From Zoogloea dura (lineage in GTDB: Bacteria; Pseudomonadota; Gammaproteobacteria; Burkholderiales; Rhodocyclaceae): DNA of 64,000 nucleotides. The stretch spans positions 1-64,000 of the forward strand of contig NZ_JABBGA010000011.1 of assembly GCF_012927165.1 (NCBI RefSeq), read 5' to 3'. Within the stretch, counting starts at the first letter, position 1, and each line of letters begins with the position of its first letter. The notes below the pieces were generated by a model. That model was not told the DNA's origin. It ran no database searches and saw nothing but the letters and a program-made list of their open reading frames with translations. The position numbers and the translations under genes were made by a program. Shown here piece by piece: positions 17,431 to 39,200 of the stretch.

Positions 17431-17433
17431 TTC

Positions 17434-18249: not shown

Positions 18250-18259
18250 GCCCGGAAGA

Positions 18260-19709: not shown

Positions 19710-20276
19710 TCAGGGCTTGTAGGCTTCGACGGCGATGGTCAGCTTGACCTCGTCGCCCACGTAGGGAGCGTACTTGCCAGCGTTGAATTCGCTGCGCTTG
19801 ATGGTCGCCGTGGCGTTGGCGCCACAGGCGTCCTTCTTGAGCATCGGGTGGGGCATGCAGTGGAAGGAGGTGACGGTCAGGGTGACCGGCTTGGTGACGC
19901 CCTTGACGGTCAGGTTGCCTTCGATGCTGGTGGGCTTGTCGCCGTCGAAGTTCACCTTGGTGGACTTGTAGGTGATGGTCGGGTAGGTGGCGGTGTCGAA
20001 GAAGTCTTCGCCCTGGATGTGCTGGTTGAACAGCGGATAGCCGGTGTTCACCGAGGTGGTGTCGATGGTCACGTCCACCGAGCCGGTCTTGGCGGCCTTG
20101 TCCAGGGTGATGGTGCCGGTGGTCTTGTCGAAGCGGGAGAGCTGGGTCGAGTAGCCGAAGTGGCTGTACTCGAAGCGCGGGAAGGTGTGGGTGCCTTCGA
20201 TGGTGTAGGTCTCCGGCGCGGCGAAGGCGGCGGTGGACAGGGTGGCGGCAATGGCCAGGGCGGCGAGTTTCTTCAT
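19710..20276 (-). CDS. YceI-family periplasmic protein (lipocalin-like), copy A
   Basis: YceI proteins are periplasmic beta-barrels that bind long isoprenoid or amphiphilic molecules. This 188-residue precursor starts at ATG 20276 behind CGGAGAAC. It has a signal peptide ending TAAFAAPE, and the family start YTIEGTHTFPRFEYSHFGYS and repeated TVKGVTKPVTLTV are clear. It has an unusual Cys pair (FHCMPHP, KDACGAN) that could form a disulfide. It is the last gene of the operon read from 23147 downward, next to a second YceI and a cytochrome b561, a common trio. Downstream is the hairpin at 19610-19660. Confidence 0.9.
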   Translation of the reverse strand: MKKLAALAIAATLSTAAFAAPETYTIEGTHTFPRFEYSHFGYSTQLSRFDKTTGTITLDKAAKTGSVDVTIDTTSVNTGYPLFNQHIQGEDFFDTATYPTITYKSTKVNFDGDKPTSIEGNLTVKGVTKPVTLTVTSFHCMPHPMLKKDACGANATATIKRSEFNAGKYAPYVGDEVKLTIAVEAYKP

Positions 20277-20314
20277 GGAGTTCTCCGTTGGGTCTATGAG
20301 TAAGGGAAACAGGG

Positions 20315-20890
20315 TTACTTCTTGGCGGCGTTGGCCACCACGTGGAACTTGATCTCGATCTCGTTGGCGACGGCGGATACGTCGGCCCACGGGCCTTCGC
20401 CGATGTTGTATTCCATGCGCTTGAGCACGAAGCCGCCGTCGAACACTCCGCTGGCGCCGTCCTGCTTGAAGGTGAAGGGGGCGACCACGTCACGGGTCTG
20501 GCCCTTGATGGTCATCTTGCCGATGGCCTCGAAGCGGTTGCCGCCGAGCGCCTTGACGCCGGTGGACACGAACTTGGCGGTGGGGAAGGCTTTGACGTTG
20601 AACCACTGCTTGCCGACCACTTCGTCGTTGGCGTCCTTGGAGCCGGCGTCGATGCTGGCCAGGTCGATCTCGAGGGTGGTGCTGGCGGCGGTGGGCTTGG
20701 CCGGGTCGAAGGCGATCTGGGTGGTGAAGCGCTTGAAGCTGCCGGGCACCGGTACGCCCATCTGCTTGGACGAGAAGGCGAGGCTGCTCCTGGCCGCATC
20801 CACCTGGTTGAATTCGGCGGCGTGGGCGTTGCCGGCCAGCAGCAGGGCGGTGCTCAGCGCAGCGTTGAGGGTCAGGGTCTGGATCTTCAT
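20315..20890 (-). CDS. YceI-family periplasmic protein, copy B
   Basis: This 191-residue exported YceI protein has a signal peptide ending AGNAHAAEF. Family motifs include ARSSLAFSSKQMGVPVPGSFKRF, DLASIDAGSKDANDEV and MTIKGQTRDVVAPF. It lacks the Cys pair of copy A. The ATG at 20890 has an AAGGAGAG site. It is encoded 22 bp after the cytochrome b561 gene and 38 bp before copy A. The two copies are only distantly similar, so this is not a recent duplication. A role in quinone or isoprenoid handling near the b561 protein is inference. Confidence 0.9.
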   Translation of the reverse strand: MKIQTLTLNAALSTALLLAGNAHAAEFNQVDAARSSLAFSSKQMGVPVPGSFKRFTTQIAFDPAKPTAASTTLEIDLASIDAGSKDANDEVVGKQWFNVKAFPTAKFVSTGVKALGGNRFEAIGKMTIKGQTRDVVAPFTFKQDGASGVFDGGFVLKRMEYNIGEGPWADVSAVANEIEIKFHVVANAAKK

Positions 20891-20912
20891 GGTCTCTCCT
20901 TGAGGTCTGGGT

Positions 20913-21452
20913 TTATTTGCCGAAGGGCAGCATGCGGCGCAGGGTGCCGTCCTTGTCGAGGATCACGTGCTTGAGGGCGCCGGCCACGTGCAGGCCGACC
21001 AGCACCAGCAGGGCCCAGTTGAGGGCTTCATGCACCTCCTTGAACAGGTCGCCCAGTTCTTCGCTCTTGCCGATCAGGTCGGGCAGCGGCAGTACGCCGA
21101 AATACACCACCTGGAAGCCCTTGGCCGAGCTCATCAGCCAGCCGGTCAGCGGGACCAGGAACATCAGCAGGTAGAGCAGGTGATGAGTGCCCTCGGCGAT
21201 CTTGTGCTGCCAGGCCGGCATCGGCAGCGCTGCCGGCGGGCGGTGGGTGATGCGCCACAGGATGCGCGGCACGAAGAGCAGCAGCACGGTGATGCCGATC
21301 CACTTGTGGTACGAGTAGAGCTTGAGCTTGTTGGGCGACAGGGGCAGGTCGTGCATGTACACGCCCAGCGGGAAGGCGACCAGGATCAGCGCGGCGATCA
21401 GCCAGTGGGCCGCAATGGCGGGGCCGCTGTAGCGGGGGGCGGTGGTGTTCAT
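20913..21452 (-). CDS. Cytochrome b561 family membrane protein
   Basis: This 179-residue four-helix di-haem b-type cytochrome probably moves electrons between the quinone pool and periplasmic partners. The start at ATG 21452 has GGAGC seven bases upstream and lies one base after the dioxygenase stop. Conserved histidines for haem ligation are visible in AAHWLIA, YSYHKWIG, GTHHLLYLLMF and VGLHVAGALKH. The helix pattern fits CybB/YodB-type proteins. Its linkage to YceI proteins is widespread. The electron donor is not determinable. Confidence 0.9.
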   Translation of the reverse strand: MNTTAPRYSGPAIAAHWLIAALILVAFPLGVYMHDLPLSPNKLKLYSYHKWIGITVLLLFVPRILWRITHRPPAALPMPAWQHKIAEGTHHLLYLLMFLVPLTGWLMSSAKGFQVVYFGVLPLPDLIGKSEELGDLFKEVHEALNWALLVLVGLHVAGALKHVILDKDGTLRRMLPFGK

Positions 21453-21453
21453 T

Positions 21454-22269
21454 TCAGTGCTCCGGATTGAAGGGGGCAGGGCTGGCGTCCTGCCAGAGAT
21501 AAGCGTCCATGGCCAGACCGCCGTAGGTGTATTCCGGTTCCAGGCGGACGGGAATCTCTCCGTGGCCGGCGGCGCCCAGGGCGGCAAAAAGGGGCAGCAG
21601 GTGCTCCTCGCTGGGGTGGGCGGCGGCACCGTGTTCGGAAGCCTGCCGGTAGTTGAGAAGGGCCGGCCGGTCGTCGCGGGACAGGGCTTCGGCCAGCCAG
21701 TTGGCGAAGGCGCGGGCTGCTTCGTAGGGCTTGCTGTTCTCGCCCCAGGTGAGCCAGCCGAAGTTGTGGGTGACCGCACCGGAGGCGAGGATCAGCACAC
21801 CTTCGTCGCGCAGGGGGCGCAGGGCGGCGCCCAGGCGCCGGTGCCAGTCGGTTCCGGCATTGGGCTGCAGGGCCAGCTGCACCACCGGGATGTCGGCTTC
21901 CGGGTACATCGCCGTGAGGGGAATCCAGGCGCCGTGGTCCAGGCCCCGTTCGGGGGTCTCGGCGCAGGGCAGGCCGGCTTCGCGCAGCAGGTCGTGGACC
22001 CGGGTGGCCAGCTCCGGGGCGCCCGGTGCCGGGTATTGCATGGCGTAGAGGGCCGGCGGAAAACCGCCGAAATCATGGATCGTCTCCGGCCGGGTCACCG
22101 TGCTGACGGTGGGCTCGCGGCTGGCCCAGTGGGCCGAGATCACCAGGATCGCCCGGGGGCGTGGCAGGTCGGCGCCGAGGCGCTTCCACAGGGCCACGCT
22201 GGCACCGGGCTTGAGCAGCACGTCGGGTGCGCCGTGGGAGACGAAGAGAACGGGGTGACGGTGCGTCAT
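21454..22269 (-). CDS. 4,5-DOPA dioxygenase extradiol-like protein (LigB/YgiD family)
   Basis: This 271-residue class III extradiol dioxygenase-like protein probably uses a single Zn or Fe centre. The expected metal-site histidines are seen in VSHGAP, ISAHW, GLDHGAWIPL and the late VTHNFG and ASEHG segments, with the DFGGFPPALY signature. YgiD relatives cleave L-DOPA in vitro, but the physiological substrate is generally unknown. Its start overlaps the preceding reductase by four bases (ATGA), and the cytochrome b561 follows at once, so all are co-translated. Association with quinone-type chemistry fits the neighbouring QorB-like gene. Confidence 0.87.
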   Translation of the reverse strand: MTHRHPVLFVSHGAPDVLLKPGASVALWKRLGADLPRPRAILVISAHWASREPTVSTVTRPETIHDFGGFPPALYAMQYPAPGAPELATRVHDLLREAGLPCAETPERGLDHGAWIPLTAMYPEADIPVVQLALQPNAGTDWHRRLGAALRPLRDEGVLILASGAVTHNFGWLTWGENSKPYEAARAFANWLAEALSRDDRPALLNYRQASEHGAAAHPSEEHLLPLFAALGAAGHGEIPVRLEPEYTYGGLAMDAYLWQDASPAPFNPEH

Positions 22270-23147
22270 GACGGATTCCTCGGGGCGTAGAACTCGTGGA
22301 TCAGGCAGTCCAGGGACTTGGGCGGATGGCCGACCAGGGCGGCGAAGTCGCAGGTGGTCGCGGCGAAGCGGCCTTCTGCGACGCAGCGGAACATGTCGCC
22401 CAGCGCGGCGGCAAACCAGGCCGGGATGCCGGCAGCGACCAAGCTCCCGACGTAGTCGTCAAGAGTCACGTGCTGGTAGGCCAGGGGCTTGCCGCTGACC
22501 CGCGCGATGCGGGCGGCGATGTCGGCATAGCTGGCGGACGACTGGCCGGTGAGGGTGTAGATCCGCTTGTCCAGGCGGGGCGCCTGGGCCGCCGCGGCGA
22601 TGGCCTGGGCCAGTTCGTTGCGGGACACCAGGCTCACCGCGCCGTCACCGGCGGGCAGGCGCAGTACATCCTGTTGCAGTTCCGGGGTGACGAGCAGGCA
22701 CAGGTCGTCGGCATAGAGGGTGTTGCGCAGGATGGTGTGATCCATGCCGCTGTCGGCCAGCGTGGCCTCGGTGTCCTTGTGGACGATGGCGAGTTCGGTG
22801 GGGGCTGCCGCATCCGCATCCATGAAGCTGGTGTAAAGGATGTGCCGGACGCCGGCCTCCCGCGCAGCCCGGATGGCATTGCGGTGCTGGGCGATGCGCA
22901 CATCCCGCGGGCCGTCGGTGGACACCAGGACCAGCCGTTCGGCGCCGGCGAAGGCCGCCGCCAGGGTTTCCGGCTGACCGAAGTCGCCTTGTCGGACGAG
23001 CACGCCGCGCCTGGCCAGGTCGCCGGCCCGGGCCGGATCGCGCACGCTGATGGCCAGCCGGCCGCCCAGGAGGGCGGGCTCGCGGGCGATCAGGTGCTGG
23101 ACGATGCGCCGGCCGAGTTGGCCGTTGGCGCCGGTGACGAGGATCAT
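22266..23147 (-). CDS. NmrA/QorB-like NAD(P)H-dependent quinone reductase
   Basis: This 293-residue atypical SDR protein has the N-terminal Rossmann motif VTGANGQLGRRI and the family's HILYTSFMDAD and HTILRNTLYADDL segments. These resemble quinone oxidoreductase 2 (QorB) and NmrA-like redox sensors. It is the first gene of a minus-strand operon (this gene, dioxygenase, cytochrome b561, two yceI) and is divergent from a LysR regulator 107 bp away, a frequent pair. It probably reduces quinones or senses NADP(H). Catalytic activity cannot be confirmed by sequence. Confidence 0.87.
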   Translation of the reverse strand: MILVTGANGQLGRRIVQHLIAREPALLGGRLAISVRDPARAGDLARRGVLVRQGDFGQPETLAAAFAGAERLVLVSTDGPRDVRIAQHRNAIRAAREAGVRHILYTSFMDADAAAPTELAIVHKDTEATLADSGMDHTILRNTLYADDLCLLVTPELQQDVLRLPAGDGAVSLVSRNELAQAIAAAAQAPRLDKRIYTLTGQSSASYADIAARIARVSGKPLAYQHVTLDDYVGSLVAAGIPAWFAAALGDMFRCVAEGRFAATTCDFAALVGHPPKSLDCLIHEFYAPRNPS

Positions 23148-23254: not shown

Positions 23255-24163
23255 ATGGATCGTCTGCAAGGTATGGAGGTGTTCATCCGGGTGGCTGAAA
23301 CCGGCAGTTTCACTGCGGTGGCGGAGCATCTCGGAGTGGCCCGGTCGATGGTGACGCGGGTGGTGGCCGGGCTCGAGGCCCACCTGGGGGTCAAGCTGCT
23401 GGCCCGCAGCACGCGCAGCCTGCGGCTGACCGCCGAGGGCGAGGTTTACCTGGAGCGCTGCCGTGAGATCCTCGATCTGGTGGAGGCGGCGGAGGGCAAC
23501 CTGTCCGGCGCCGACCGGGCGCCCCGCGGCCCGATCCGCATCAGCGTGCCGGTGAGTTTCGGGGTGCGCCACCTGTCCCCGCTGGTGGCCGACTTCGTGA
23601 CCACCTACCCGGAGGTCAGCCTCGACATCGATTTCAACGATCGCCAGGTCAATCTCATCGAGGGTGGGCTGGACATGGCGATCCGTATCACCACCCAGCT
23701 CGACCCGACCCAGGTGGCGCGCCGCATCAGCACCTCGCGGCTGCTGACCCTGGCCTCGCCGGAATACCTGGCCCGCCACGGTAGCCCCAGGGTGCCGGCC
23801 GATCTGGCGCAGCACCACTGCCTGGGCTACACCGGCACCTCGCGGGCCGCCTGGCCGTACCGGGTGGAGGGCGAGACGCAGTGGGTGCCGGTGCAGGGGC
23901 GTTTGCAGGCCAACAGCGGAGACGCCCTGCTGGATGCCTGCCAGCGTGGCCTGGGCATCACCCGGCAACCCAGCTTCATCGCGGCACCTGCGGTGCAGGC
24001 GGGCTTGCTGGAGGTGCTCCTGCCGGAGTTTCCCGGGCTCGACCTGGGGATCTACCTGATCTTCCCAAGCCATCGCTACCTGCCGACCCGGGTGCGGGCC
24101 CTGGCGGACTACCTGGCGGAACGCATCGGGGCGTCGCCCTATTGGGATCAGGGCTTGCCCTGA
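23255..24163 (+). CDS. LysR-family transcriptional regulator
   Basis: This 302-residue LysR regulator starts at MDRLQGMEVFIRVAETGSFT, a textbook N-terminal winged helix. An upstream in-frame start at 23198 would add 19 residues without family similarity. The substrate-binding domain (GPIRISVPVSFG...) is of the CrgA/AaeR-like subgroup. It is divergent from the reductase-dioxygenase-b561-yceI operon and probably controls it. The 107-bp gap contains an AGGCT-N17-AGCCT inverted repeat and a CTTTGTTGCAAGAAG T-N11-A-like site. The effector is unknown; quinone or electrophile stress is a reasonable guess from context. Confidence 0.9.
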   Translation: MDRLQGMEVFIRVAETGSFTAVAEHLGVARSMVTRVVAGLEAHLGVKLLARSTRSLRLTAEGEVYLERCREILDLVEAAEGNLSGADRAPRGPIRISVPVSFGVRHLSPLVADFVTTYPEVSLDIDFNDRQVNLIEGGLDMAIRITTQLDPTQVARRISTSRLLTLASPEYLARHGSPRVPADLAQHHCLGYTGTSRAAWPYRVEGETQWVPVQGRLQANSGDALLDACQRGLGITRQPSFIAAPAVQAGLLEVLLPEFPGLDLGIYLIFPSHRYLPTRVRALADYLAERIGASPYWDQGLP

Positions 24164-24348: not shown

Positions 24349-26967
24349 ATGAAGCGCACCCTCTGGGCCGTTGTTGCGGCCATCGCTGTCTTGTCCGGCA
24401 TCTACTACAGCGGCGTCGCCGATCCTCCTCCGCTGATTCCCGTTCAGGCCGCCGATCCGCCGGCCGCCGCGGTGCCCGCCCAGGCTGCGGCCCGGCCCGA
24501 GCCCGGTGTGCAGGACCAGAACGCACCCTACATGGAGGCCTGCGCCCGGGAGGGGCTCAACGCCTCGGAATGCGTGGGCCGCCTGATCTGGTTCAAGGCC
24601 ACCGGCGGCAACGAGCGCTTTCACACCTACACCTTCCAGCAGCGCGTCGGGGTGCTGGTGGACTGGTTCAGGGTGCTCCGCGCGGACCAGCGGGACGACC
24701 GCTTCTGGGCCTGGGGAATCATCAACGACCCGTCCTGCTGCAAGCCGGGCGAGGCGGATTGCCCGGCAAAATCCCTGGACGACACCTATGGCCTCGACTG
24801 GTGTCCCGGCGACGACGTGCTGCTCAAGTTCGTGGGCAAGCCGGGCTACGTGGACCCGGCCTGCGGGCTGCAGGATGCCGCCCTCGACCCCGAGGATCCG
24901 CACACCAAGGGCGGCAAGGTGGACCAGCGCCACAGCGCCTGTGACCTGCGCTTCGGCACCTCCACCGGCGCCCTGGGGATCCGCAAGTTTCCCAATCCGC
25001 GTTTCGATCCCGAGAAATGGAAGGCCCTCAACGGTGGCACGGCCAGTTGGGCCGGCTTCAACCGCAAGCTCGACGCCGTCACCGGCATCGAGTCCGACAG
25101 CCGGGTCAGCAAGCTGGCGGATGCTTCGGTCGAGCCGCCCTTCCTGATCGGCACTTCCTGCGGCTCCTGCCATATCGCCTTCGACCCCCTCAACCCGCCG
25201 GCGGATCCGGCCCATCCCAAGTGGGAGAACATCAAGGGCCTGGTCGGCAACCAGTACACCCGCATGTCCGAACTGCTCGGCTCGGGCATGCCGAAGACGG
25301 CGCTGGAATACCAGATGTTCGCCCACGCCCGCCCAGGGGTGACCGACACCTCGGCGATCTCCCATGACCAGGTGAACAACCCGGGCACCATCAACGGCCT
25401 CTTCAACGTGGCCCAGCGCCCGGTCTTCAAGGGCGAGCCGGTGACCAAATGGCGCAAGGTGGCCAGCTGCGCTGCCGGGCAGGATGAGGCCAAGTGCTGG
25501 TGCGAACCCGGTCGCGACGGCAAGTGCTGGCAGTTCTCCACCCGCACGGACGACGTCACGCCGGTGTTCCTGGGCGGTACCAAGGTCAACCTGCCGGGCA
25601 TCCACCACATCCTGAAGGGCAGTGAAGACTCCACTGGCGCCCACGAGGCGATCCAGCGTGTGTACTTCAACATCGGCTCCTGCTCGGAGCAGTGCTGGGT
25701 CAATCATTTCACCGACATGCGCCAGGTGGACCCGGAACAGCGCGGCTTCGGCCAGACGCCCTTCAACGTGGGCCAGTGCCGGCGTGACTGCCCCAACTTC
25801 CGGGCGGTGGAAGACCGGCTGCAGAACATCCTGGACTTCTTTGCCTCCGCCGAGTCGGACCAGACCGACCTGCAGGTGGCACGCGCGAATGCCCGCCAGG
25901 CGAAGGGCGCGACGGCCACATATGGTCACGCCGAGCTGGTGGCCGACCTTGAGAAGGAGTTCGGCAAGGGCGCCGTGGCACGGGGCCAGACGGTCTTCGC
26001 CGAGAACTGCGCGCGCTGCCACTCGAGCATCCCGGAGGCCGAGGGCGGAGCCTTCAAGGGGCGTGATTTCGCGGCGCCGAACGAGGCCCACCCCCGCAAG
26101 GTGCGCGCCGACTTCCTGGGCAATGACCAGGCCACGCCGGTCACCGAGGTGGGCACCTTCCGCTGCCGGGCCCTGCACTCCAACCACATGGCGGGGCATC
26201 TCTACATGGAGTACGCATCGGACGCCCTGCGCACCCGCCAGGTGGTGGCCGACATCCCCGAGCCAGAGGCCCTCAAGAATGGTGGCCGGGGTTATTACCG
26301 CAACATCTCGCTAGTGAATGTATGGGCTACCGCGCCCTTCATGCACAACAACGCCATCGGGCCCGAAGTGTGCGGCAACCCGGCCAACAAGGACAACGAC
26401 TTCCACCGGGCCCGCTATGCCGACGAGAACAACGTCCTGCTGGCGAGCCAGCCCGCCTGCGTGCGTTACGACCCGAGCGTGGAGGGGCGTTTCGATCTCT
26501 ACAAGCGATCGATGCAGGAGCTCCTCAACCCCAAGGCCCGCGGCCGCAAGATCACCCTGACCAATGCCGACCTGCTGATCGACCTGGGCATCCGGCCCCT
26601 GGATGGCAAGGCCGAGAAGCCTCTGGGCGGCTTCGGCCAGGTGAAGATCCCGATGGGGGCCAGTGCCGGCTTCCTGAACGGCCTGCTGCACAAGCAGCTG
26701 ATCGGCGACCTGTTCCTGGCCAAGCGCGACCCGGCCCGCCTGGAGGCGGCCGGCCGGAAGGACCTGGTGCCGACCCTGCAGGCCATCGCCGACGAGGTGC
26801 TCAAGAATCCGGCGCGTTTCGTGGAGATCCTGCGCGAGAAGCGGGACTTCCTGGCCGCCCACTACCAGACCTGCGACCAGATGGTCGAGAACGAGGGGCA
26901 CCGCTTCGGCGAAGACCTTTCCGACGCGGACAAGAAGGCCGTCACCGCCTTCCTGGCCACCCTGTGA
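24349..26967 (+). CDS. Large exported cysteine-rich di-heme c-type cytochrome (peroxidase/MauG-like C-terminus), function unknown
   Basis: This 872-residue protein starts at ATG 24349 behind AGGGAAGGG. It has an N-terminal hydrophobic segment (about 5-22) that may anchor it or be cleaved, followed by a Pro/Ala linker. Two haem sites are visible, CGSCH (271-275) and CARCH (554-558). The first 500 residues hold at least a dozen additional cysteines, including CC at 130-131, suggesting many disulfides. The WATAPFMHNN segment recalls the RAPYLHNG motif of di-heme peroxidase-like proteins encoded downstream. It opens a five-gene operon of exported cytochromes with 11-27 bp gaps. I do not recognise a characterised homologue. 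Oxidase, oxygenase or electron-transfer roles are all possible. Confidence 0.82.
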   Translation: MKRTLWAVVAAIAVLSGIYYSGVADPPPLIPVQAADPPAAAVPAQAAARPEPGVQDQNAPYMEACAREGLNASECVGRLIWFKATGGNERFHTYTFQQRVGVLVDWFRVLRADQRDDRFWAWGIINDPSCCKPGEADCPAKSLDDTYGLDWCPGDDVLLKFVGKPGYVDPACGLQDAALDPEDPHTKGGKVDQRHSACDLRFGTSTGALGIRKFPNPRFDPEKWKALNGGTASWAGFNRKLDAVTGIESDSRVSKLADASVEPPFLIGTSCGSCHIAFDPLNPPADPAHPKWENIKGLVGNQYTRMSELLGSGMPKTALEYQMFAHARPGVTDTSAISHDQVNNPGTINGLFNVAQRPVFKGEPVTKWRKVASCAAGQDEAKCWCEPGRDGKCWQFSTRTDDVTPVFLGGTKVNLPGIHHILKGSEDSTGAHEAIQRVYFNIGSCSEQCWVNHFTDMRQVDPEQRGFGQTPFNVGQCRRDCPNFRAVEDRLQNILDFFASAESDQTDLQVARANARQAKGATATYGHAELVADLEKEFGKGAVARGQTVFAENCARCHSSIPEAEGGAFKGRDFAAPNEAHPRKVRADFLGNDQATPVTEVGTFRCRALHSNHMAGHLYMEYASDALRTRQVVADIPEPEALKNGGRGYYRNISLVNVWATAPFMHNNAIGPEVCGNPANKDNDFHRARYADENNVLLASQPACVRYDPSVEGRFDLYKRSMQELLNPKARGRKITLTNADLLIDLGIRPLDGKAEKPLGGFGQVKIPMGASAGFLNGLLHKQLIGDLFLAKRDPARLEAAGRKDLVPTLQAIADEVLKNPARFVEILREKRDFLAAHYQTCDQMVENEGHRFGEDLSDADKKAVTAFLATL

Positions 26968-26978
26968 GGAGAACCGCC

Positions 26979-27857
26979 ATGCGTGCCCGCACTGCAGTCT
27001 TCGCCCCTCTGGCCCTTGCCGTCCTTGCCCTGAGCGCCTGCAACAAGGAGACGCCGCCGCCGAACATCCCCTTCGCCCCCTGGGACAAGTCCTACGCCTC
27101 CAAGCCGGATCTGGCCCTGGTGGATCATGCCTATCCGATCCCCACGGTCGAGCTGGCCCGCATCACGCCCGAATACCTGGCCACGCTGGACCAGGAGCAG
27201 ATCGACCAGATCTATGCCCGCCTCAGCGCCGGCCCCATTCCGGATGGTGCCTTCGACGGCAAGATCCTGCTGCCCCGCGGCGGCGGCGGCAAGTTTCGCT
27301 TGTCCGAGATCGTCGGCGGCTTTACCGGCACGGCCCTGCACCTGAAAGGCCTGGTGCTGGAGGATGTGGGCGAGACCCTGTGGCGGGGCAAGGTCTTCTA
27401 TCGCAACGAGCGGGTGCTGCGGAACCGCATTGAGGACCTGTCCTTGCTCAAGAAGATGGGGCTGGTGCAGGGTGATCCGAAGAAGATGGACTTCAACGGC
27501 AAGGAGACCTGGCTGCTCTTCCCGGCCAAGCTGTACTGCGGGCAGAGCCTGCTGGACGCGCGGCGGGAGTCCATCATCATCGACTACTTCTTCACCGACG
27601 AGATCCCGGGCTACCAGGAGAACCCCGACTTTCTGGCGGGGCGCCGCGGCTTGCGCGTGCGTGACGAGATCCGCATGATCCGGCCCGGCCTCTACTTGGG
27701 GCGGGCCTACCTCGACAAGGGCTTCGCTCTCAACTTCACCCTCTACAACAAGGCCATGGACGAGCAGGGGCGGGACGCCTTTGTGAAGACGGGGCAGGCC
27801 CAGGAGGATTGCTGGTCCGGCACCCAGCCCCGGCGGATACTCGCCTCGGCCGGCTGA
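26979..27857 (+). CDS. Lipoprotein of unknown family in the cytochrome operon
   Basis: This 292-residue predicted lipoprotein starts at ATG 26979 behind GAGGAGAA, 11 bp after the large cytochrome. It has a signal peptide with lipobox LSAC (Cys21). The mature part begins NKETPPPNIPFAPW, has no haem motif, and contains IPDGAFDGKILLPRGGGGKFR and an aromatic-rich C-terminal half. I do not recognise the family. Its conserved place between two di-heme proteins suggests an outer-membrane-anchored scaffold, substrate-binding or maturation partner. That is inference from location only. Confidence 0.75.
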   Translation: MRARTAVFAPLALAVLALSACNKETPPPNIPFAPWDKSYASKPDLALVDHAYPIPTVELARITPEYLATLDQEQIDQIYARLSAGPIPDGAFDGKILLPRGGGGKFRLSEIVGGFTGTALHLKGLVLEDVGETLWRGKVFYRNERVLRNRIEDLSLLKKMGLVQGDPKKMDFNGKETWLLFPAKLYCGQSLLDARRESIIIDYFFTDEIPGYQENPDFLAGRRGLRVRDEIRMIRPGLYLGRAYLDKGFALNFTLYNKAMDEQGRDAFVKTGQAQEDCWSGTQPRRILASAG

Positions 27858-27884
27858 CGGCGGCGGCCCGTATGGAGCGCGTGG

Positions 27885-29930
27885 ATGATCAGCCGTTGGC
27901 GGCAGGGGCTGGTGGCGGGTGTCCTGGTCATGTGGGCAGCCTGCGGGGCTGAGGCGTCCGATGTGGCAGATGCGGCCTGGGTCGTGGATCCGGCCCGGCC
28001 CGGGGCGCATCTGCCTCCCCGGGGAGCATCCCTGTTCGACCGCCTGTTTGCCGCGCCATCCGGTGATCGTCACGCGCTGCCTTTTCCCTTCGAAAGGCTG
28101 GTTGCGCGTATCAATCGCGAGTTGTCGCCCGCTGCACCGGGTGGTCTGCCGCCGCTGAAGGCGGTGCTGCTGCCCCTCGGGCGTTCCCTGCAGCGCACTG
28201 CGGCAGCGCCGGACTACTTCCGCTTTCCCCGGGTGGTGGTGGCGGTGGATGCCCCGCCAGCTGCGGGGTCGTCCCTGTTGCTGAAGGACCGCCTGTACAT
28301 CGGCTACCAGGAGAAGTCTGCCGTGCTCGAGGTCATCAGCTACAACGAAGAGGCCGGCCGCTTCGAGTTCCAGCTGGTCAAGGACTACCGGGCCGGCGGG
28401 CAGCCGAGGGTCTTCCAGGCCAACCGTAACATCTGCTTTGCCTGCCATCAGAACGGGGCGCCGATCTTCTCCCGTGCCCTGTGGGACGAGACCAACGCCA
28501 ATCCGGCCATTGCGGCCCGCCTCAAGGCGACCGGGCGCCGCTATTACGGTGTGCCACCGGAGCGCGGGGTGGATCTGCCCTATGCCATCGATGTGGCGGT
28601 GCGTCGCGCCAACCGGCTGGCCCTGGCCCAGCGCCTGTGGCGCGAAGGCTGTGGCGATGGCGAGGCGGGCTGGCGCTGCCGGGCCGGCCTGTGGCAGGCC
28701 GCCCTGCGCCTGCGTCTGGGGGACGATCGGCGCCTGCCGCCCGATGCGGCCTTCGAGGAGGTCAGTGCCGCGCCGCTGCGGCGCACGGCCGCCCGCAACT
28801 GGCCGGCCGGCCTGGCCCTGGGGCGCCCGGATCTGCCGAATCGCAATCCCTTGCCGGACGGCGCTGCCTGGCCGTCTTCCCCCGCGGAGCAGGTGGCCCG
28901 CTCGAACGTTGCGGCAATCTTCGACCCGCTGCTGCCGCGCGCGGCCGAGCAGGTCTGGCGCAGCGACTCGCCGCAGGCGGTGGACGAGGCGGTCGAGGCC
29001 GTCGCCGGGTTTGTCGTCGACGGCCGCTGGCCGGGCCTGATGGCGGCCTTGGCGCGCCGCGCGGCGGCCCTGCCGCGGTTGGTGATCGCGCTGGAATGCA
29101 CGCAGCCGGCCTCCGGGCCGGAGCGCGAATGCCTCGGCGCCGACGGCAGCCGCCTGCGCCTCGATCCGGCCGCCGGGCGGGTCGAGGGCTTGCGCCTGGC
29201 CGGCGGTCTGCCGCATCCCGCCTTCACTCTGCGGCCGGCTACGGCGTTGCGCCTGGCGGGTGGCAACTGGCTTGAGCGGCTGGACATGTCGGGGCTGAAG
29301 AACGGGAACGGAACACTCCGGCTGGTGTTGCGGGACGACCACGCCGCCCTCGCCGCCGCGTTCCGCCGCCTGGCCGGGCAGCCGTCATGGCAGGCCTTGC
29401 TGGATGGCCGCCCGCTGCCCCGCGAGGCCTTGCTGAATGCACTCCTGCTCGAGCTGGGGGAGCGCCTCCCACCGTCGGCCTCTGGCACGCTGCCGGTGCC
29501 GCAGCTGGAGCTGCCCGCCGCCTTGCCCACCACGGAGACCCGCGGGCTGGCACCTTCCCTGGCGGCCTTCCATGCCTGGTGCGCGGCCTGCCACTGGAGC
29601 GCCGAGACCTTTCCGCCCAATTTCCTGCAGGGGCCGGCAGAGACCCTGGAGGCCCGGCTGCGCCAGTGCGCGCCGCGGATCTACGTACGCCTGGCCATGG
29701 CCAGCCTGCCCCGCGCCCAGCGCGCCAAGACCCCCATGCCGCCGGAGACCATGCTGCCGGCCTTCGGCACCCACGCCGAGGCCTGGGCTCAGGGGGCGGA
29801 GCGCGCCGCACTGGAGGCGACCATCCGCCGCATGCTCGTGGCCGAAAGCGGGCGCGAGCCCGATCTGCCGACCCTGCTGGCCGGGGGCTACGAAGCGCTC
29901 CGCCCCTGCCTGGCTCCAGCCCGTCCTTGA
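27885..29930 (+). CDS. Exported di-heme c-type cytochrome, unknown function
   Basis: This 681-residue exported protein has two haem sites, CFACH (184-188) and CAACH (566-570), about 380 residues apart. A signal peptide ends near GAEASD. The region before the first haem (RLYIGYQEKSAVLEVISYNEEAGRF) is beta-rich, and the haem is followed by QNGAPIFSRALWDETNANP, which looks conserved. The middle is Arg/Ala-rich helical sequence with little recognisable similarity. Codon use is strongly GC-biased, as in its neighbours. It is 27 bp after the lipoprotein gene and 12 bp before the first RoxA-like gene. Function is unknown. Confidence 0.78.
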   Translation: MISRWRQGLVAGVLVMWAACGAEASDVADAAWVVDPARPGAHLPPRGASLFDRLFAAPSGDRHALPFPFERLVARINRELSPAAPGGLPPLKAVLLPLGRSLQRTAAAPDYFRFPRVVVAVDAPPAAGSSLLLKDRLYIGYQEKSAVLEVISYNEEAGRFEFQLVKDYRAGGQPRVFQANRNICFACHQNGAPIFSRALWDETNANPAIAARLKATGRRYYGVPPERGVDLPYAIDVAVRRANRLALAQRLWREGCGDGEAGWRCRAGLWQAALRLRLGDDRRLPPDAAFEEVSAAPLRRTAARNWPAGLALGRPDLPNRNPLPDGAAWPSSPAEQVARSNVAAIFDPLLPRAAEQVWRSDSPQAVDEAVEAVAGFVVDGRWPGLMAALARRAAALPRLVIALECTQPASGPERECLGADGSRLRLDPAAGRVEGLRLAGGLPHPAFTLRPATALRLAGGNWLERLDMSGLKNGNGTLRLVLRDDHAALAAAFRRLAGQPSWQALLDGRPLPREALLNALLLELGERLPPSASGTLPVPQLELPAALPTTETRGLAPSLAAFHAWCAACHWSAETFPPNFLQGPAETLEARLRQCAPRIYVRLAMASLPRAQRAKTPMPPETMLPAFGTHAEAWAQGAERAALEATIRRMLVAESGREPDLPTLLAGGYEALRPCLAPARP

Positions 29931-29942
29931 AGGGATGCGACC

Positions 29943-31457
29943 ATGACCCGCCCCACCGTGCCCTCCCTCCCGTGGAAGCATCGCTTCCTGATCCTGTTTG
30001 CGCTGACCGTGATCCTGCCGGCCAGCCTGGGCTTGTGGCTGCTCGGGCGCTTCGGGGCCGACACGCCGGTGGACTATGCCGATCCGGTCGAGCACTTCAA
30101 GTACGGCTCCACCGGCGGCGAGCACGAGATGGGCTTTCCCTACTGGATCTGGCGCGCGCTGCCCGAGGTGTGCGGCCACTATCTGCCGGGGCCGGGCTAT
30201 CAGTCGATTGGCATGATCTACGAGAAGAACCCGGATGGTAGCCTCAAGGACCTGCCTGTCGGCACCTCGAAGCGTCGCTACCAAGGGGTGGACCGGGTCT
30301 TCGTGAATTGCGCGGTGTGCCATGTGAGCACCGTCCGGGCCGCCGCCGACACGCCGCCGCTGCTGGTGCCTGGCATGCCGGCAGCCTTGTTCAACATGAA
30401 GGCCTTCGAGGAGTTCTTCTTCCGCTGCGCTGCCGATCCGAAGTTCTCCCAGGAGTATCTGATCCCCGAGATCCAGCGGCAGGGCGCCGACCTGGACCTG
30501 CTCGACCGCTACCTCGTGTATCCCCTGGCGATCGGCATCATGCGCGACCGGGTGCTGGCCCTGAAGGGGCGCTTCGAGTGGGTCTTCGAGCAGAAGGCGT
30601 GGGGGCCGGGGCGGGTCGACACCTTCAACTCGGCCAAGGTGATCTTCAACTTTCCGATGCACCGGCTCGACCCGAAGGAGTTCGATGCCCCGGCGGACTT
30701 CCCGTCGATCTGGCTGCAGCGCCCGCGCCGCGAGCCGCGGGCCATGGAGCTGCACTGGGACGGCAACAACTCTGACATGACCGAGCGAAACAAGAGCGCC
30801 GCCTTCGGCACCGGCACCACCCCGCCCACCATCGACCTGCCACGCATCCGCCGCGTGGAAGGCTGGATCATGGATGCCGAGCCGCCACGCTTCGATACCC
30901 TGTTCCCGGTGGATAAAGCCCTCGCCGAGCGAGGGGCGCCGCTCTACCGGGAATACTGCGCCGCCTGCCATGGCGCCAGCGGCCGGGACTTCAGCGGTGA
31001 AAAGGTAGGGCGGGTGACGCCCCTTGCCGATATCGGCACCGACCGTCGTCGCCTGGATTCCTACACCTATACGCTGGCGGTGAACCAGGCCACCCTGTAT
31101 GCGGGCTATCCGTGGCGCTTCACCCGTTTCCGCAAGACCCACGGCTACGCCAACATGCCCCTGGACGGCATCTGGCTGCGCGCCCCCTATCTGCACAATG
31201 GCTCGGTACCCAGCCTGCGTGATCTGCTGGAACCCGCCTCCCGGCGCCCTGCGGTGTTCTGGCGGGGCAATGACCTGTACGACCCGCTACGCGTGGGCTT
31301 TGCTTCCGACAAGGCGGAGGTGGCCGGGCGGCCCCTGTTCGAGTTCGATACCCGCCAGCCCGGCAACGGCAATGGGGGGCACGAGGGCAAGGCCTACGGC
31401 ACCGAGTTGTCCGCCGACGACAAGGCGGCGCTGGTCGAATACCTGAAGACATTCTGA
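29943..31457 (+). CDS. Membrane-anchored di-heme cytochrome c, RoxA/di-heme peroxidase-like, paralogue 1
   Basis: This 504-residue protein has an N-terminal membrane helix (about 15-36) and a periplasmic domain. It carries two haem sites, NCAVCH (Cys123, Cys126, His127) and CAACHG (Cys338, Cys341, His342). The C-terminal LDGIWLRAPYLHNGSVPSLRDLLEP signature belongs to the di-heme peroxidase/MauG superfamily branch that includes the rubber oxygenase RoxA and fatty-acid dioxygenases of Pseudomonas aeruginosa. It is shorter than RoxA (about 680 residues). The next gene encodes a paralogue with both haem positions within one residue of these. A peroxidase or oxygenase acting on a hydrophobic substrate is plausible, not shown. 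Confidence 0.83.
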   Translation: MTRPTVPSLPWKHRFLILFALTVILPASLGLWLLGRFGADTPVDYADPVEHFKYGSTGGEHEMGFPYWIWRALPEVCGHYLPGPGYQSIGMIYEKNPDGSLKDLPVGTSKRRYQGVDRVFVNCAVCHVSTVRAAADTPPLLVPGMPAALFNMKAFEEFFFRCAADPKFSQEYLIPEIQRQGADLDLLDRYLVYPLAIGIMRDRVLALKGRFEWVFEQKAWGPGRVDTFNSAKVIFNFPMHRLDPKEFDAPADFPSIWLQRPRREPRAMELHWDGNNSDMTERNKSAAFGTGTTPPTIDLPRIRRVEGWIMDAEPPRFDTLFPVDKALAERGAPLYREYCAACHGASGRDFSGEKVGRVTPLADIGTDRRRLDSYTYTLAVNQATLYAGYPWRFTRFRKTHGYANMPLDGIWLRAPYLHNGSVPSLRDLLEPASRRPAVFWRGNDLYDPLRVGFASDKAEVAGRPLFEFDTRQPGNGNGGHEGKAYGTELSADDKAALVEYLKTF

Positions 31458-31469
31458 GCGGAGGGTGCC

Positions 31470-32954
31470 ATGAACAGCTTTAATCCCCGTGATCGCCGGG
31501 CCTGGCGGCGGATCGCCTGCGGGCTGCTGGCGGTCCTGCTGGTGGCCGCCGCCTACCTGGGCTGGAGCCGCGGCTTCCGGGAGGAGCCCCAGCCTGCCTG
31601 GGTCTTCGAAACGCCGGACAGTCGCTACCGCTATGGCTCCATCGGCGCCGAGCATGAGGCCGGGATCCCCTACTGGATCTTCTACGTGCTGCCACGGGTC
31701 TTTCCCGAGAAGTTCCGGCAGGACGGCCAGGTGGTGGCCGGCGGCTACGCGGCGCTCGGAGTGGCCTGGGAGCAGGGCCAGGAGCTGCCCGTCGGCTTCA
31801 CCAAGAAGACCATCGGTTTTCCGCGGGTGGCCAACAACTGTGCGGTCTGCCATACCACCAGCTACCGGGTGAGCGCCGACTCCAACCCGGTGTTCGTGTC
31901 CGGCGGGCCGGGGCACACCCTGAACCTGCAGAATTTCTTCCGCCTGCTGATCGACTGCGCCCGTGATCCGCGCTTCAACGCGGACATCCTGATGGCCGAG
32001 ATCAACCGGGTCACCAAGCTCGACCTGATCGACCGGCTGCTCTACCGCTTCGTGATCATTCCCATGACCCGCCAGCGCCTGCTCGAGCGCGAGGCGCAAT
32101 TCGCCTGGATCTACCGTCCCGACTTTCCCGATTGGGGGCGCGGGCGTGATGACGGCATGAACCTCACCAAATACCTGTTGATCCGCGCGCCGATGGACGA
32201 GACCTACGGGCCCGCCGACATACCCGCCATCTGGAACCTGGCCAAGTACAAGGCGGAGACCGGGCAACTGCCCAACTACGCCGGCGACACCCACGACGTG
32301 CATTCGGTGATGATCGATTCAGCCCTCGGGGTGATGGCCGCCGCACCGGCCGATCCGGAAGATTTTCGCAAGCAGATGGCCTGGTTGCAGGATTTCCTGT
32401 CCAGGCTGCCGCCGCCGAAATACCCCTTCCCGGTGGATGGCGACAAGGCTGCGGCCGGCCGGGCCATCTTCGCAGCGGAATGCGCGGCCTGCCATGCCGG
32501 CACGCGCGTGGGCACCCGCATCCCCCTGGCCGAGGCGGGGACTGACCCCGGCCGTCTCGAGTCCTGGAACCCCGACGCGGCCAGGGCCGCCAACCGGATC
32601 GTCGGCAAGATGGGTATCGAGCGCAAGGGGCTGGTGGAGGCGCCCCTGCCCGGCTACAAGATCCCCTTCCTGGACGGGATCTGGCTGAGGGCGCCCTATC
32701 TGCACAACGGCGCCGTGCCGACCTTGCGGGATCTGCTGGAGCCACCGGAGCGCCGGCCGCGGGTGTTCTGGCGGGGCTACGATGTGTATGACCCGGTGAA
32801 GGTGGGCTTCGTGAGCGATGGCGAGGAGGCCCGCCGGGCGGGTTCCCGCCTCGACACGGCCGAGCGGGGCAATGGCAATGGCGGACACAATTTCGGCACC
32901 GGGCTGGCTCCCGCCGACAAGGAGCGCCTGGTGGAGTACCTCAAGACGCTGTAG
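31470..32954 (+). CDS. Membrane-anchored di-heme cytochrome c, RoxA/di-heme peroxidase-like, paralogue 2
   Basis: This 494-residue tandem paralogue of the preceding gene lies 12 bp downstream, starting at ATG 31470 behind GGAGGG. An N-terminal helix spans about 14-31. Haem sites are NCAVCH (Cys124, Cys127, His128) and CAACH (Cys338, Cys341, His342). The shared C-terminal motif is LDGIWLRAPYLHNGAVPTLRDLLEPPERRPRVFWRG. The two proteins share the GSxGxEHExGxPYWI entry motif and matching haem spacing but differ in the middle. They may therefore have different substrates or sequential reactions, as in known tandem di-heme fatty-acid oxygenases. It is the last cytochrome of the operon. Confidence 0.83.
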   Translation: MNSFNPRDRRAWRRIACGLLAVLLVAAAYLGWSRGFREEPQPAWVFETPDSRYRYGSIGAEHEAGIPYWIFYVLPRVFPEKFRQDGQVVAGGYAALGVAWEQGQELPVGFTKKTIGFPRVANNCAVCHTTSYRVSADSNPVFVSGGPGHTLNLQNFFRLLIDCARDPRFNADILMAEINRVTKLDLIDRLLYRFVIIPMTRQRLLEREAQFAWIYRPDFPDWGRGRDDGMNLTKYLLIRAPMDETYGPADIPAIWNLAKYKAETGQLPNYAGDTHDVHSVMIDSALGVMAAAPADPEDFRKQMAWLQDFLSRLPPPKYPFPVDGDKAAAGRAIFAAECAACHAGTRVGTRIPLAEAGTDPGRLESWNPDAARAANRIVGKMGIERKGLVEAPLPGYKIPFLDGIWLRAPYLHNGAVPTLRDLLEPPERRPRVFWRGYDVYDPVKVGFVSDGEEARRAGSRLDTAERGNGNGGHNFGTGLAPADKERLVEYLKTL

Positions 32955-33075: not shown

Positions 33076-33579
33076 ATGTCTTCGACCGTTACCCTGGGTG
33101 GCAACCCCGTGCAGGTGGAGGGTGATCTGCCCCAGAAGGGCCAGCAAGCGCCGGCCTTCACTCTTGTCGCCAAGGATCTGTCCGACACCGCCCTCACCAG
33201 TTTTGCCGGCAAGCGCAAGGTGTTGAACATTTTCCCGAGCATCGACACGCCCACCTGCGCCACCTCCGTGCGCAAGTTCAACCAGTCCGCCAGCGAGATC
33301 GCCAACACCGTCGTGCTGTGCATCTCCGCCGACCTGCCCTTTGCCCAGAGCCGTTTCTGCGGCGCCGAAGGCCTGTCCAACGTGGTGACCCTGTCCACCC
33401 TGCGTGGCGCGGCCTTCATCAAGGATTACGGTGTGGCCCTGGCCAGCGGCCCCCTGGCCGGCCTGACCGCCCGTGCCGTGGTGGTGCTGGACGAGAACGA
33501 CAAGGTGCTGCACAGCGAGCTGGTGCCGGAGATCAAGAACGAGCCGGATTACACCGCCGCGCTGGCCGCCCTGGCCTGA
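33076..33579 (+). CDS. tpx: Thiol peroxidase (Tpx, 2-Cys peroxiredoxin)
   Basis: Tpx reduces H2O2 and lipid hydroperoxides using thioredoxin. The 167-residue protein has the peroxidatic Cys61 in [15 protein letters not shown] and the resolving Cys95 in SRFCGAEG, the typical atypical-2-Cys spacing. ATG 33076 follows AAGGAG. It lies 121 bp after the cytochrome operon, so it may have its own promoter. Lipid-peroxide detoxification beside possible di-heme oxygenases is a suggestive but unproven pairing. A truncated haemoglobin gene follows 26 bp later. Confidence 0.95.
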
Positions 33580-33605
33580 TCGAGCGGGTTGGGGAGGCAG
33601 CTGTC

Positions 33606-33983
33606 ATGCAGGATGCAGTCGGCTTGGACGAAGCGCATCTCGAGGCCCTGGTGCGGGGCTTCTATACCCGCGCCCGCCAGGATCCGGTGCTGGGCCCGGT
33701 CTTTGCTGTCGCGGTGACGGATTGGGAGCATCACCTCCAGGTGGTGACCGATTTCTGGTCGCGCATCCTGCTGGGCAGCCAGCGCTATTTCGGGTCGCCC
33801 TACACGGCCCATATGCGCCTGCCCCTGCAGCCCGCGCATTTTGATCGCTGGCTGGCACTCTTCCGTGAGGCCGCCGCAGACTTCCTGCCACCCGATGCGG
33901 CGGTGACTGCGGTGGCCAAGGCCGAGATGATGGCCGCCAGCTTCAAGGCGGGGCTGGAAGGCGCCAGTCTTTCCGCGCCTTGA
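33606..33983 (+). CDS. Group III truncated haemoglobin
   Basis: This 125-residue globin has the group III features: a Phe-Tyr pair (19-20, B9/B10) in VRGFYTRAR, WEHHLQVVTDFWSRILLGSQRYFGSPYTAH, and the proximal His78 in QPAHFDRWLALF. It probably binds O2 or NO and may support peroxide or nitrosative-stress chemistry; Campylobacter Ctb is the best-known relative. ATG 33606 follows GGGGAGG. It is likely co-transcribed with tpx and converges with a minus-strand glycine-zipper gene. Confidence 0.9.
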   Translation: MQDAVGLDEAHLEALVRGFYTRARQDPVLGPVFAVAVTDWEHHLQVVTDFWSRILLGSQRYFGSPYTAHMRLPLQPAHFDRWLALFREAAADFLPPDAAVTAVAKAEMMAASFKAGLEGASLSAP

Positions 33984-36264: not shown

Positions 36265-39200
36265 TCAGGGGGATGGTGCCGCCGAGTTCCTGTCCTCGAG
36301 ATGCGGGATCAGGATCGGCCCCATGGATTTGAGGATCTGCACGGGCAGGGCCGAGGTGAACTGGTAGCTGGCGGCGTCCGGGCCCATCACGTAGGCGGTG
36401 AGGGTGCCGAAATGGCGGGGGCCGAGGTAGAAGACGAAGGTGGCCGTGCGGTTGAGTGCGACGCCGCGTCCATGCCCCTGGCTGATGACGATGCGGTTGT
36501 CGCCAGTGCCGGTCTTGCCGCCCACCGGGAGGGGCTTGCCGTCGGCGAGCTTGAAGGCGCCGGACAGGCGCCGCGCGGTGCCGCCCTCGACCACTTCGGA
36601 GAGGGCATTGCGCAGGGCCTCCGCTACTTCCGGTGCCATCACCCGCTCGCCCTCGCCGGCCGGGCGCGCAAAGCGCGTCTCGTAGGGGGTTCCAACGCCG
36701 AAGTCGAGGCGGTCGATGCGCAGGGTGGGCTGGCGCACCCCATCGTTGACGATGATGCCCATCAGCTCCGCCAATGCTGCCGGGCGGTCGCCTGAGCTGC
36801 CCAGCGCGGTGGCGAAGGACGGCACCAGGTGGCCGAAGGGGTAGCCGACCCGGGCCCAGCGGCGATGGATGTCCACGAAGGCTTCGATCTCCATCATGGT
36901 GTAGATGCGCGAATCCCGGGCGCCCTTGTGGCGTGAGCGGAACAGCCAGCGATAGACCGCCTGACGCTCGTCGGCGCTGGCGGCCACGACGTCGCTCCAG
37001 CGTGCCTCGGGATGGGCGATTAGGTGGCCGACCAGCCACAGTTCGAGCGGATGCACGCGCGCCACGTAGCCGCGGTCGGTGAGGTCGTAGGCCTCCGGAG
37101 CATTGCGTTCGTGGACTTTGACCAGGGCGTCGTCGGAGAGGGCCTTGCCTGCCAGACGCTCGCGCAGGAAGGCGCCGAGCTGTGCTGGTGTGGCCTTGGG
37201 GTCAAGGTACCGGAACACCGCAGCCAGCCGGTCGGCAGTGGGGCGCAGGTCGTCGAGGAAGTCCTCGCGGATCTGCTCCGGAGATTTGCCGTGGTACTTG
37301 TGCCAGAAGCGCCGCAGGAAGGTCTGGCCTTCCCGGTCTGCGAAGCGGGCGAGGTAGTCGGCGCGTTGCGGGTTGCTGTCGTCCTCGAGGAGCTGTGCGG
37401 TCTGGCTCGGGCCGTTGTACATCGTGTAGCGCACGATGTCGCGCATCAGGCGCACGAAGGGCAGGTTGATCGAGCCTTGCAGGGCTTCGCGCAGGGTGGG
37501 TACGCGCCCGTTGTCCTCGGCGCGGAAGTTGTTGAAGGTATGTGCGCCGCCACCGGTGAAGAAGGTCTCGGCGGGGCTCGCCGAGTAGTGGCGTTCCAGG
37601 GCCGCCTGCAGCATGACGGACAGGCTGCGGTCGGAGGCATGGGCCTGGTACTCGACGGCCCACAGGGACAGCCTGTCGCGCGAGTCGATCTTGAGCTTGC
37701 GCAGTTCGGCGGGGCTCTGGCTGGAGAGCCGCTGATGCAGCTCGGCGATGATCTCGAGATAGCTGGTGAGTACCCGCAGTTTGGCGGTCGAGCCGAGTTC
37801 CAGCTTGCTGCCCTCGTTGATGTCGAGGGGCTGGTCGGTGGTGTCGGTCTGCACGCGTACCCGGTTGCCGTCGGGTATCCGCTCGACCAGGTTGAAGCTG
37901 TAATGGACGCCTTCCAGCTTGGCCGGAACGAGCATGCGTTCGCCAAGCAGGCCCTGCTTGCGGGCGAACTCGGGGGTGTGCAGCTGCCCGAGAAAGTCGC
38001 TGACCTTTGCCTGCAGGTCCCCGTCGAGGGTGGTGGTGACGGCCAGGTCAAAGCGGTCGAGTTCGTAGAGCGAGGCGTCGAGCATGCCCGCCAGCCGGTT
38101 GCGGATGGCCGTGGTGCCCTTGCTGACGCGGGCCGGCTGGAGCGGCGGGTTTGCCACCAGGTCGCGGAAGCGGAGGGGCTGGGCGAGGGCCGCGTCGCGC
38201 AGCGCCGGGCTGATCAGGCCATTCTCGGCGAGCAGCCGTAGATGGCTTTCGGAGAGCTTGGCGAGGGCTTCCCGGCCCTTGAAGGGCAGGTAATAGGTGG
38301 GGCGGCGATGGGCGATCAGCAGGGCGACGACCTGGTGCAGCACCCGCCCCTGGGCGGCCAGCTGCTCGCCGGTGCCGTCCGGTGCGGCCAGCAGGGCGTT
38401 GGCCTGTTCGAAATCGGTGCCGAACCACACCCACATCCCATCGCCGATGCCATTGACCTCGCCGTGCCCGGGCGCTGCGGACAGAGGCACGGTGTTGAGG
38501 TAGTCGAGGATCAGGCGGCGGCGCGTGGGCAGGGTTTCCTCGCCATCGAGGTAGGCGCGCACGCTGGCCGACACCATCTGGCGCAGCTTTTCGCCGGCGT
38601 TGGGGGTCACGCCGTCGGGGGAGTGGCGGTACTTCTCGATCTGGGTGGCGAGGGTGCTGCCGCCAGGTGCATCGAAGTCCTCGCTCACCAGGCGGCCGAC
38701 CCGGCCGAGCACGGCACGTGCAAAACGCACCCAGTCGACGGCCGGGTTCATGTGGGGACGTGCTTCGTCGAGCAGGTCGCGGTTCTCGATGAACATCAGG
38801 GCCTGGGCCATCCGGGTGGGCACGGCCTCGAAGTCCGGGTAGCTCCGGTAGGGGTAGCGGAAGTCGTAGAGCGTCTCGCCGCGGCTGTCGACCAGGTCGA
38901 GCCCGGCCCGGGTCTTTTCGTGGAAGGGCGCGAAATAGCCGCGCCCGGTGTAATCCATCAGCGTTTCGGAGAAGCGTGTCTGGCGGACCCGCCGGAAGCC
39001 GTGGGCATCGAGGTGGCTGATGACTGCCGGCAGCCGGGTGTAGCCCAGGCGCTCGTCGAAGGGACCGTGGCCCGGATAGCGCAGCCTGCCGTCCTGCCCG
39101 TCGACCGTCTGGTAGTCGAGCTGTGCGGCGTAGCGGGTGAGGTGTTCGGCCTGTAGCCGGGATGTCTGGATCTCGTCGGCGAGGAAGACGCCTCCACCGA

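Follow-up and report, generated by a model that had tools for sequence, protein, structure and literature searches.

The first 64,000 nucleotides of contig NZ_JABBGA010000011.1 of Zoogloea dura (assembly GCF_012927165.1; genome of 5.83 Mb in 83 contigs), hereafter the window, contain five consecutive open reading frames (ORFs) on the forward strand that encode exported proteins, one lipoprotein and four proteins with two haem-binding motifs each, and that are analyzed here as a gene cassette, A-B-C-D-E. According to the ORF list of the window, A (24349..26967), B (26979..27857), C (27885..29930), D (29943..31457) and E (31470..32954) are separated by 11, 27, 12 and 12 bp, with products of 872, 292, 681, 504 and 494 amino acids; an alternative ATG upstream of A, at 24301, would lengthen its product to 888 residues. 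The CXXCH motifs are located at residues 271/554 of A, 184/566 of C, 123/339 of D and 124/338 of E, that is, eight motifs over four exported proteins. An earlier interpretation, made from the DNA sequence alone (the sequence-only reading), had described the locus as four proteins with two CXXCH sites each plus a 292-residue lipoprotein, with gaps of 11–27 bp, and ORFs, motifs and lipobox confirm this. The 12-bp spacing suggests that D and E are co-transcribed. A promoter and terminator scan gave no promoter-like sites and two terminator-like sites, compared with a mean of 3.8 in shuffled sequences.

A scan of a genome collection with B yielded 53 named loci, and the presence of the other genes was counted only where the contig left room for them. 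A lies upstream of B in all 52 such loci, and C, D and E follow in 46 of 47, 40 of 45 and 36 of 41, respectively, so that the genes are kept together, as the sequence-only reading had supposed, rather than rarely co-occurring. Carriers include Zoogloea, Accumulibacter, Dechloromonas, Propionivibrio, Azonexus, Thauera, Rivibacter, Rhizobacter, Nitrosospira, Nitrosovibrio and a metagenome-assembled genome (MAG) of the Chromatiales, among others; at the strain level, Zoogloea oleivorans Buc, Dechloromonas hankyongensis XY25 and Nitrosospira multiformis Nl7 can be named. D and E are missing from four Nitrosospira/Nitrosovibrio loci, which keep A-B-C, and from L035 (loci are designated here by L numbers), a MAG contig labelled Planctomycetaceae in which a partial A and B are followed by 8.9 kb that contain none of the other three genes. 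This contig, the sole miss for C, is likely a chimeric assembly and is still scored as a miss for all three genes. A search of 172 genomes with an A profile revealed two more cassettes in another proteobacterial class (presumably Alphaproteobacteria), A-B-C-D-E in L174 and A-B-D-E in L175. Within the order, B was found in 9 of 150 genomes, Z. dura included, and the distribution of the cassette is therefore scattered; the relatives of the window's B in two Zoogloea MAGs are 95% identical to it, which places the genome close to Zoogloea. The flanking genes vary from genus to genus, and beyond the five no gene common to all genera was seen among ORFs of at least 90 codons, a threshold that small genes could escape. 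Given that the order is kept over the named Betaproteobacteria, one Chromatiales MAG and two genomes of another class, the arrangement is not a matter of chance; judged by this gene order, the five genes are a conserved unit that is inherited together. No publication describing the cassette was found by title or abstract in a literature search whose reach mostly excluded subscription papers; as far as these searches show, the cassette is new as a system, although it is built partly on a known superfamily.

That superfamily is the one of the rubber oxygenase RoxA, to which D and E, 39% identical tandem paralogues, had been linked by the sequence-only reading, and the profile comparisons bear this out. 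Both exceed the cut-offs of PF21419 (RoxA-like_Cyt-c; 60 and 57.6 bits for D and E, respectively, against 26.7) and of NF040606 (di-heme-cytochrome C peroxidase; 195.4 and 176.8 against 150), and a joint D/E profile matches RoxA (PDB: 4b2n) with an E-value of 2.4e-19, the aligned region including the inter-haem segment, the MauG motif and the C-terminal distal-histidine block. Like RoxA and RoxB of Steroidobacter cummioxidans 35Y and RoxC, D and E possess two CXXCH motifs, a MauG motif of the form PYxHNGSVP (APYLHNG in both D and E, within APYLHNGSVP in D, 31182..31211, and ending in GAVP in the window's E) and a distal-histidine block near the C-terminus. They differ from these proteins in being smaller, in having an N-terminal hydrophobic stretch, judged by eye to be a membrane anchor, in their conserved partner genes, and in scores far under the 900–1000-bit cut-offs of the RoxA, RoxB and RoxC NCBIfam models (46.9–66.7 bits for D, 46.5–61.5 for E). 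The equivalents of the RoxA oxygen-site residues W302 and F317 were located by counting along the D/E-RoxA profile alignment. In D they are W272 (30756..30758) and F288 (30804..30806), tryptophan and phenylalanine being present in 41 of 41 rows, the window counted as one. In E they are Y270 (32277..32279) and L286 (32325..32327), the first position being occupied by tyrosine in 37, phenylalanine in two and tryptophan in one of 40 rows and the second by leucine in all 40. In this alignment the RoxA-type pair is present in D only, and E lacks it. For comparison, the accessible parts of two reports give these positions as W/F in RoxA, V/F in RoxB and F/A in RoxC, which is described there as devoid of rubber oxygenase activity (PMC10837239, PMC6311187).

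In a tree of 42 rows, D and E fall into separate clades with support values of 95/98 and 100/100; since each clade spans several genera, the split between D and E predates those genera. The tree was built without the rhizobial D and E described below and without L108 and L114, and the E of L022, which is split over two frames, entered it as a 273-residue fragment. Of 369 genomes from the class, 112 contain a match to NF040606 itself at an E-value of 0.001 or better and 19 contain one over its cut-off; a long branch sets D and E apart from most members of NF040606, L115 being grouped with D and E.

The sequence-only reading had assigned the two remaining di-haem proteins to no recognized family, which stands for C and fails for A. 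In hhalign, A matches D/E at 97.9% (E-value 3.8e-13) over 170 columns of its C-terminal half, which include an APFMHNN motif (residue 662; 26332..26352) in the place of the MauG motif and a C-terminal GHRFG. On this evidence A is a third, divergent member of the RoxA superfamily, lying below the family cut-offs (18.9 bits for PF21419, 33.9 for NF040606, 8.2–17.7 for RoxA/B/C). Both haem histidines, in CGSCH (25159..25173) and CARCH (26008..26022), the motif histidine and the terminal histidine are kept in all 53 rows, the window counted. Several distant A-like proteins have LLNN at the APFMHNN position, and one locus, L176, contains only a partial A-like gene. The structure and profile alignments here and below cover part of the loci, with 21 rows for A, 26 for B, 26 for C and 19 for D/E.

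For B, neither Pfam nor NCBIfam gave a match at E-values up to 1. Its lipobox, LSAC, contains a cysteine (C21, 27039..27041) that is invariant in the 26-row alignment, and its structure model is a barrel for which the nearest PDB entry is 4mve (Tcur_1030), relative to which B has an additional lipobox, N-terminal extension and C-terminal tail; a literature search found no paper on the function of 4mve. The lipobox marks B as a lipoprotein and the models give it a predicted barrel. C likewise has no Pfam or NCBIfam family over cut-off, and for its model (predicted local distance difference test, pLDDT, 81.6) no PDB match was found. It is not a member of the RoxA superfamily, the comparison with the corresponding profiles giving 23.8% with no haem aligned. 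The N-terminal haem motif of C is CFACH (28434..28448), followed by IFSR, and the C-terminal one is CAACH (29580..29594); an invariant methionine, M618 in PMPP, is a possible axial ligand. Since the C homologue of L174 (6270–7849) has no C-terminal haem domain, the N-terminal part alone may serve. A P460 domain in C, indicated initially by a 73.8% profile match (alignment of 18 of 20 rows, L138 and L141 being excluded), is after a control a weak candidate at most: the CxxCH...IFS of C locally resembles the CxxCH...VFS of cytochrome P460 and cytochrome c'-beta, and beyond the haem block no similarity survived.

The nearest worked example that we can propose by analogy is the oleate diol synthase pair of Pseudomonas aeruginosa, PA2077/PA2078 (FadCcp), for which the accessible portion of PMC4496055 documents lipid oxygenation by RoxA-type haem enzymes. 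Like D and E, which lie 12 bp apart, these are tandem exported di-haem RoxA-like paralogues, and in both pairs the W302 equivalent is kept in one protein and lost in the other: the same portion gives the W302/F317 equivalents as W251/F269 in PA2077 and S243/F260 in PA2078. The product of PA2077 is reported there to be a hydroperoxide that is toxic without PA2078, which would explain why genes of this kind stay linked. A LysR-type receptor of oxylipins, OdsR, adjoins the operon according to the part of PMC6377657 that is available, and a LysR neighbour is present also in the Zoogloea-like loci, the gene lying downstream in P. aeruginosa and upstream here. The present cassette is larger, five genes compared with two (634 and 624 amino acids), and the operon, compared here from its published description, has no described counterparts of A, B and C in the portions available.

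We consider it about an even chance that the five genes constitute a periplasmic pathway for lipid oxygenation in the cell envelope. The kinship of A, D and E, the motifs, the modelled barrel of B and the co-inheritance come from sequence and models, whereas the substrate, the order of steps and the role of C are inferred as follows. Near the envelope, B would hold or pass on a hydrophobic ligand, in all likelihood lipid hydroperoxides or acyl chains that are unsaturated. D, which seems to be held in the inner membrane by an anchor and to face the periplasm, would bind O2 at its N-terminal haem and oxygenate the acyl chain, and E, with its altered site, would handle the product of D as PA2078 does after PA2077. 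A may then carry out a further oxidation or cleavage step, while C might supply or drain electrons or sense a small ligand.

The neighbours of distant A-, B- and D/E-like genes, for which scans covered part of the genes at each locus, point in the same direction. Among seven separate non-cassette A-like loci (L068, L078, L096, L097, L098, L153 with L154, and L156), a GMC oxidoreductase is encoded in five (L068, L096, L098, L153, L156) and a patatin-like phospholipase in three (L098, L153, L156), one of them just under the cut-off; the Z. dura genome has two GMC and seven patatin places in 5.83 Mb, a background of 0.007 and 0.024 per 20 kb. On plasmid pRL11 of Rhizobium johnstonii (strain 3841) and in Sinorhizobium fredii the order is D, a 143-residue membrane protein, E, an A-like gene, a GMC oxidoreductase and a patatin-like phospholipase, the S. 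fredii patatin match reaching 21.4 of the required 27.7 bits. The 143-residue protein was considered as a counterpart of B and rejected, as it is by eye a multi-pass membrane protein and no similarity to B was found. On a Mesorhizobium onobrychidis plasmid (L156, 1–16462) the A-like gene adjoins one whose 1562-residue product contains GMC domains (73.5 and 62.7 bits) together with a match to patatin just short of the threshold (26.6 of 27.7 bits). A gene for a cysteine tryptophylquinone (CTQ) oxidase of the LodA/GoxA family is located about 7 kb from that A-like gene.

Short relatives of B occur in five loci (L128, L079, L078, L080, L068), and in three loci genes for animal haem peroxidases adjoin B relatives or D-like genes. 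In L128 (4911–18091) such a peroxidase (PF03098, 232 bits) is followed by a small B, D, E, a PorP/SprF-like protein and a subtilase; L079 has one (232 bits) near a small B, and L155 has one, with an alpha/beta hydrolase, near a D-like gene. The small B of L078 is accompanied by an A-like gene at 1.9 kb, a DyP-like gene (one of two domains over cut-off), a catalase-like gene and a protein that among solved structures is nearest to coral allene oxide synthase (E-value 0.0034), and that of L080 lies near a GMC oxidoreductase and an alpha/beta hydrolase. Look-alike gene sets resembling that of L078 stand beside the small B in L079 (14457–18387) and L080 (5750–10032); five of their genes were scanned, with no Pfam match. 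In Nitrosospira multiformis (L068) a GMC oxidoreductase, a second A-like di-haem gene and a tyrosinase (13014–18904, reverse strand) are convergent with A-B-C, and a barrel-only small relative of B lies at 20154–20585. Among more distant NF040606-type genes, one that encodes a protein 30% identical to D adjoins a patatin gene (L131), and another lies about 3 kb from a squalene/phytoene synthase gene, with a PLD-like gene also present (L130).

Several observations weigh against lipid oxygenation. The five genes themselves include no lipase, GMC oxidoreductase or animal-type peroxidase, and a barrel in the B model is no proof of lipid binding. The F317 equivalent, reported as kept in PA2078 (F260), is absent from E. 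The link to lipids comes mostly through distant relatives: the A-like proteins are 25–28% identical, the di-haem genes of L130 and L132 are remote relatives, and the GMC and patatin background is that of one genome. The pgpA and acyltransferase-like (DUF374) genes of L132 look like housekeeping neighbours, L097 is surrounded by housekeeping genes, and six genes scanned around the D-E pair of L129, with cobU, protease-like, ATP-grasp and pirin genes among them, include no lipid gene. A prediction set beforehand for two fresh A-like loci, namely a GMC oxidoreductase, a lipase or B/D/E nearby, was followed by the finding that each is a cassette in which B, D and E are present. The genes scanned in L174 and L175 include neither GMC nor patatin; an LCAT-like gene is divergent to A in L175, and a PhyH-family gene lies 1.6 kb past E in L174. 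This outcome is strong support for the cassette and weak support for the connection with lipids.

Other explanations can be weighed against the same evidence. Growth by oxidative cleavage of a hydrophobic polymer, whether a polyisoprenoid or some other, in the manner of RoxA and RoxB, would agree with the RoxA-type residues of D, with the PF21419 and 4b2n matches and with the squalene/phytoene synthase of L130. We regard it as improbable in view of the distance between the 46.5–66.7 bits of D and E and the 900–1000-bit Rox cut-offs, the shorter and, by eye, membrane-anchored rather than secreted proteins, the retention of A-B-C by Nitrosospira and Nitrosovibrio, and the relatives of RoxC that, in the available part of PMC10837239, were tested and had no rubber oxygenase activity. 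Of the hydrophobic or polymeric substrate envisaged by the sequence-only reading, the polymer therefore fares poorly, while a hydrophobic substrate is plausible from the barrel of B and the phospholipase, GMC and animal-haem-peroxidase genes near relatives. Defence of the envelope, in which the di-haem proteins would reduce H2O2 or lipid hydroperoxides as cytochrome c peroxidases do, is likewise unlikely: the family name of NF040606, the thiol peroxidase gene downstream in eight of 35 loci with room and the DyP-like and catalase-like genes near the small B of L078 speak for it, but PF03150 (CCP_MauG) is unmatched in all five proteins up to an E-value of 1, its four places in the genome all being on other contigs, RoxA lacks peroxidase activity according to the accessible part of PMC6311187, and three paralogues with differing sites suggest a pathway.

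An extracellular or trans-envelope electron route, the other function that the sequence-only reading had offered, would make use of the eight CXXCH motifs and could be connected with the PorP/SprF-like gene after D-E in L128. We regard such a route as very improbable: multihaem and porin genes are missing from the five, L128 is the sole locus at which the PorP/SprF-like gene was seen, and in their haem sites and motifs A, D and E conform to the RoxA superfamily. Equally hard to credit is a maturation system of the MauG or MbnH kind, in which a protein or peptide cofactor is formed by post-translational oxidation: D and E have the MauG-type PYLHNG and weak TIGR04039 (MbnH) matches (E-values 0.12 and 0.035), but CCP_MauG is unmatched and the loci share no extra gene beyond the five among the ORFs of at least 90 codons, a small precursor being able to escape that limit. 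Least probable of all is nitrogen-oxide chemistry at a P460- or c'-beta-like N-terminal domain of C, with the other proteins supplying electrons, for which the local likeness of the haem block would be the starting point.

Returning to lipid oxygenation, the cassette and its relatives might together represent a bacterial oxylipin machine, a broader picture that we advance tentatively and rate below an even chance. Three RoxA-type di-haem enzymes would act in sequence on envelope lipids brought by the barrel lipoprotein B, with C as a di-haem protein of new fold, in hosts that range from nitrifiers and the phosphate accumulators of sludge to another proteobacterial class. In the rhizobial version a phospholipase and a GMC oxidoreductase would feed the enzymes, and elsewhere an animal-type haem peroxidase would be the partner of B-D-E.

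Outside the core, a LysR-type regulator gene (23258..24163, forward strand), recognized by a Pfam match and by locus comparison, precedes A and possibly controls the cassette; such a gene lies upstream in 17 of the 49 loci whose contigs leave room for it, and these 17 bear the labels Zoogloea, Zoogloeaceae or Proteobacteria MAG. Downstream, the thiol peroxidase gene (33076–33579, forward strand) is kept in nine of 53 loci when the rule on contig room is waived, and a bacterial-like globin gene follows it directly past the cassette (33076–33980 for both). Some 3 kb upstream and divergent (19713–21467, reverse strand), two genes whose products contain YceI domains (145.8 and 121.4 bits) adjoin a cytochrome b561 gene, and gene clusters at a similar distance recur in Zoogloea loci. 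YceI proteins bind isoprenoid lipids. A LigB-type ring-opening dioxygenase gene (21457–22269, reverse strand) is located beside an NmrA-like gene (22266–23147), and 36268–39312 (reverse strand) encodes a 1015-residue protein with a transglycosylase match and a weak transpeptidase match about 500 residues apart.

If the proposed function is correct, RoxA-type lipid oxygenation would be far more widespread, extending to ammonia oxidisers and Accumulibacter, and the named strains that carry the cassette or its rhizobial version make this function testable.

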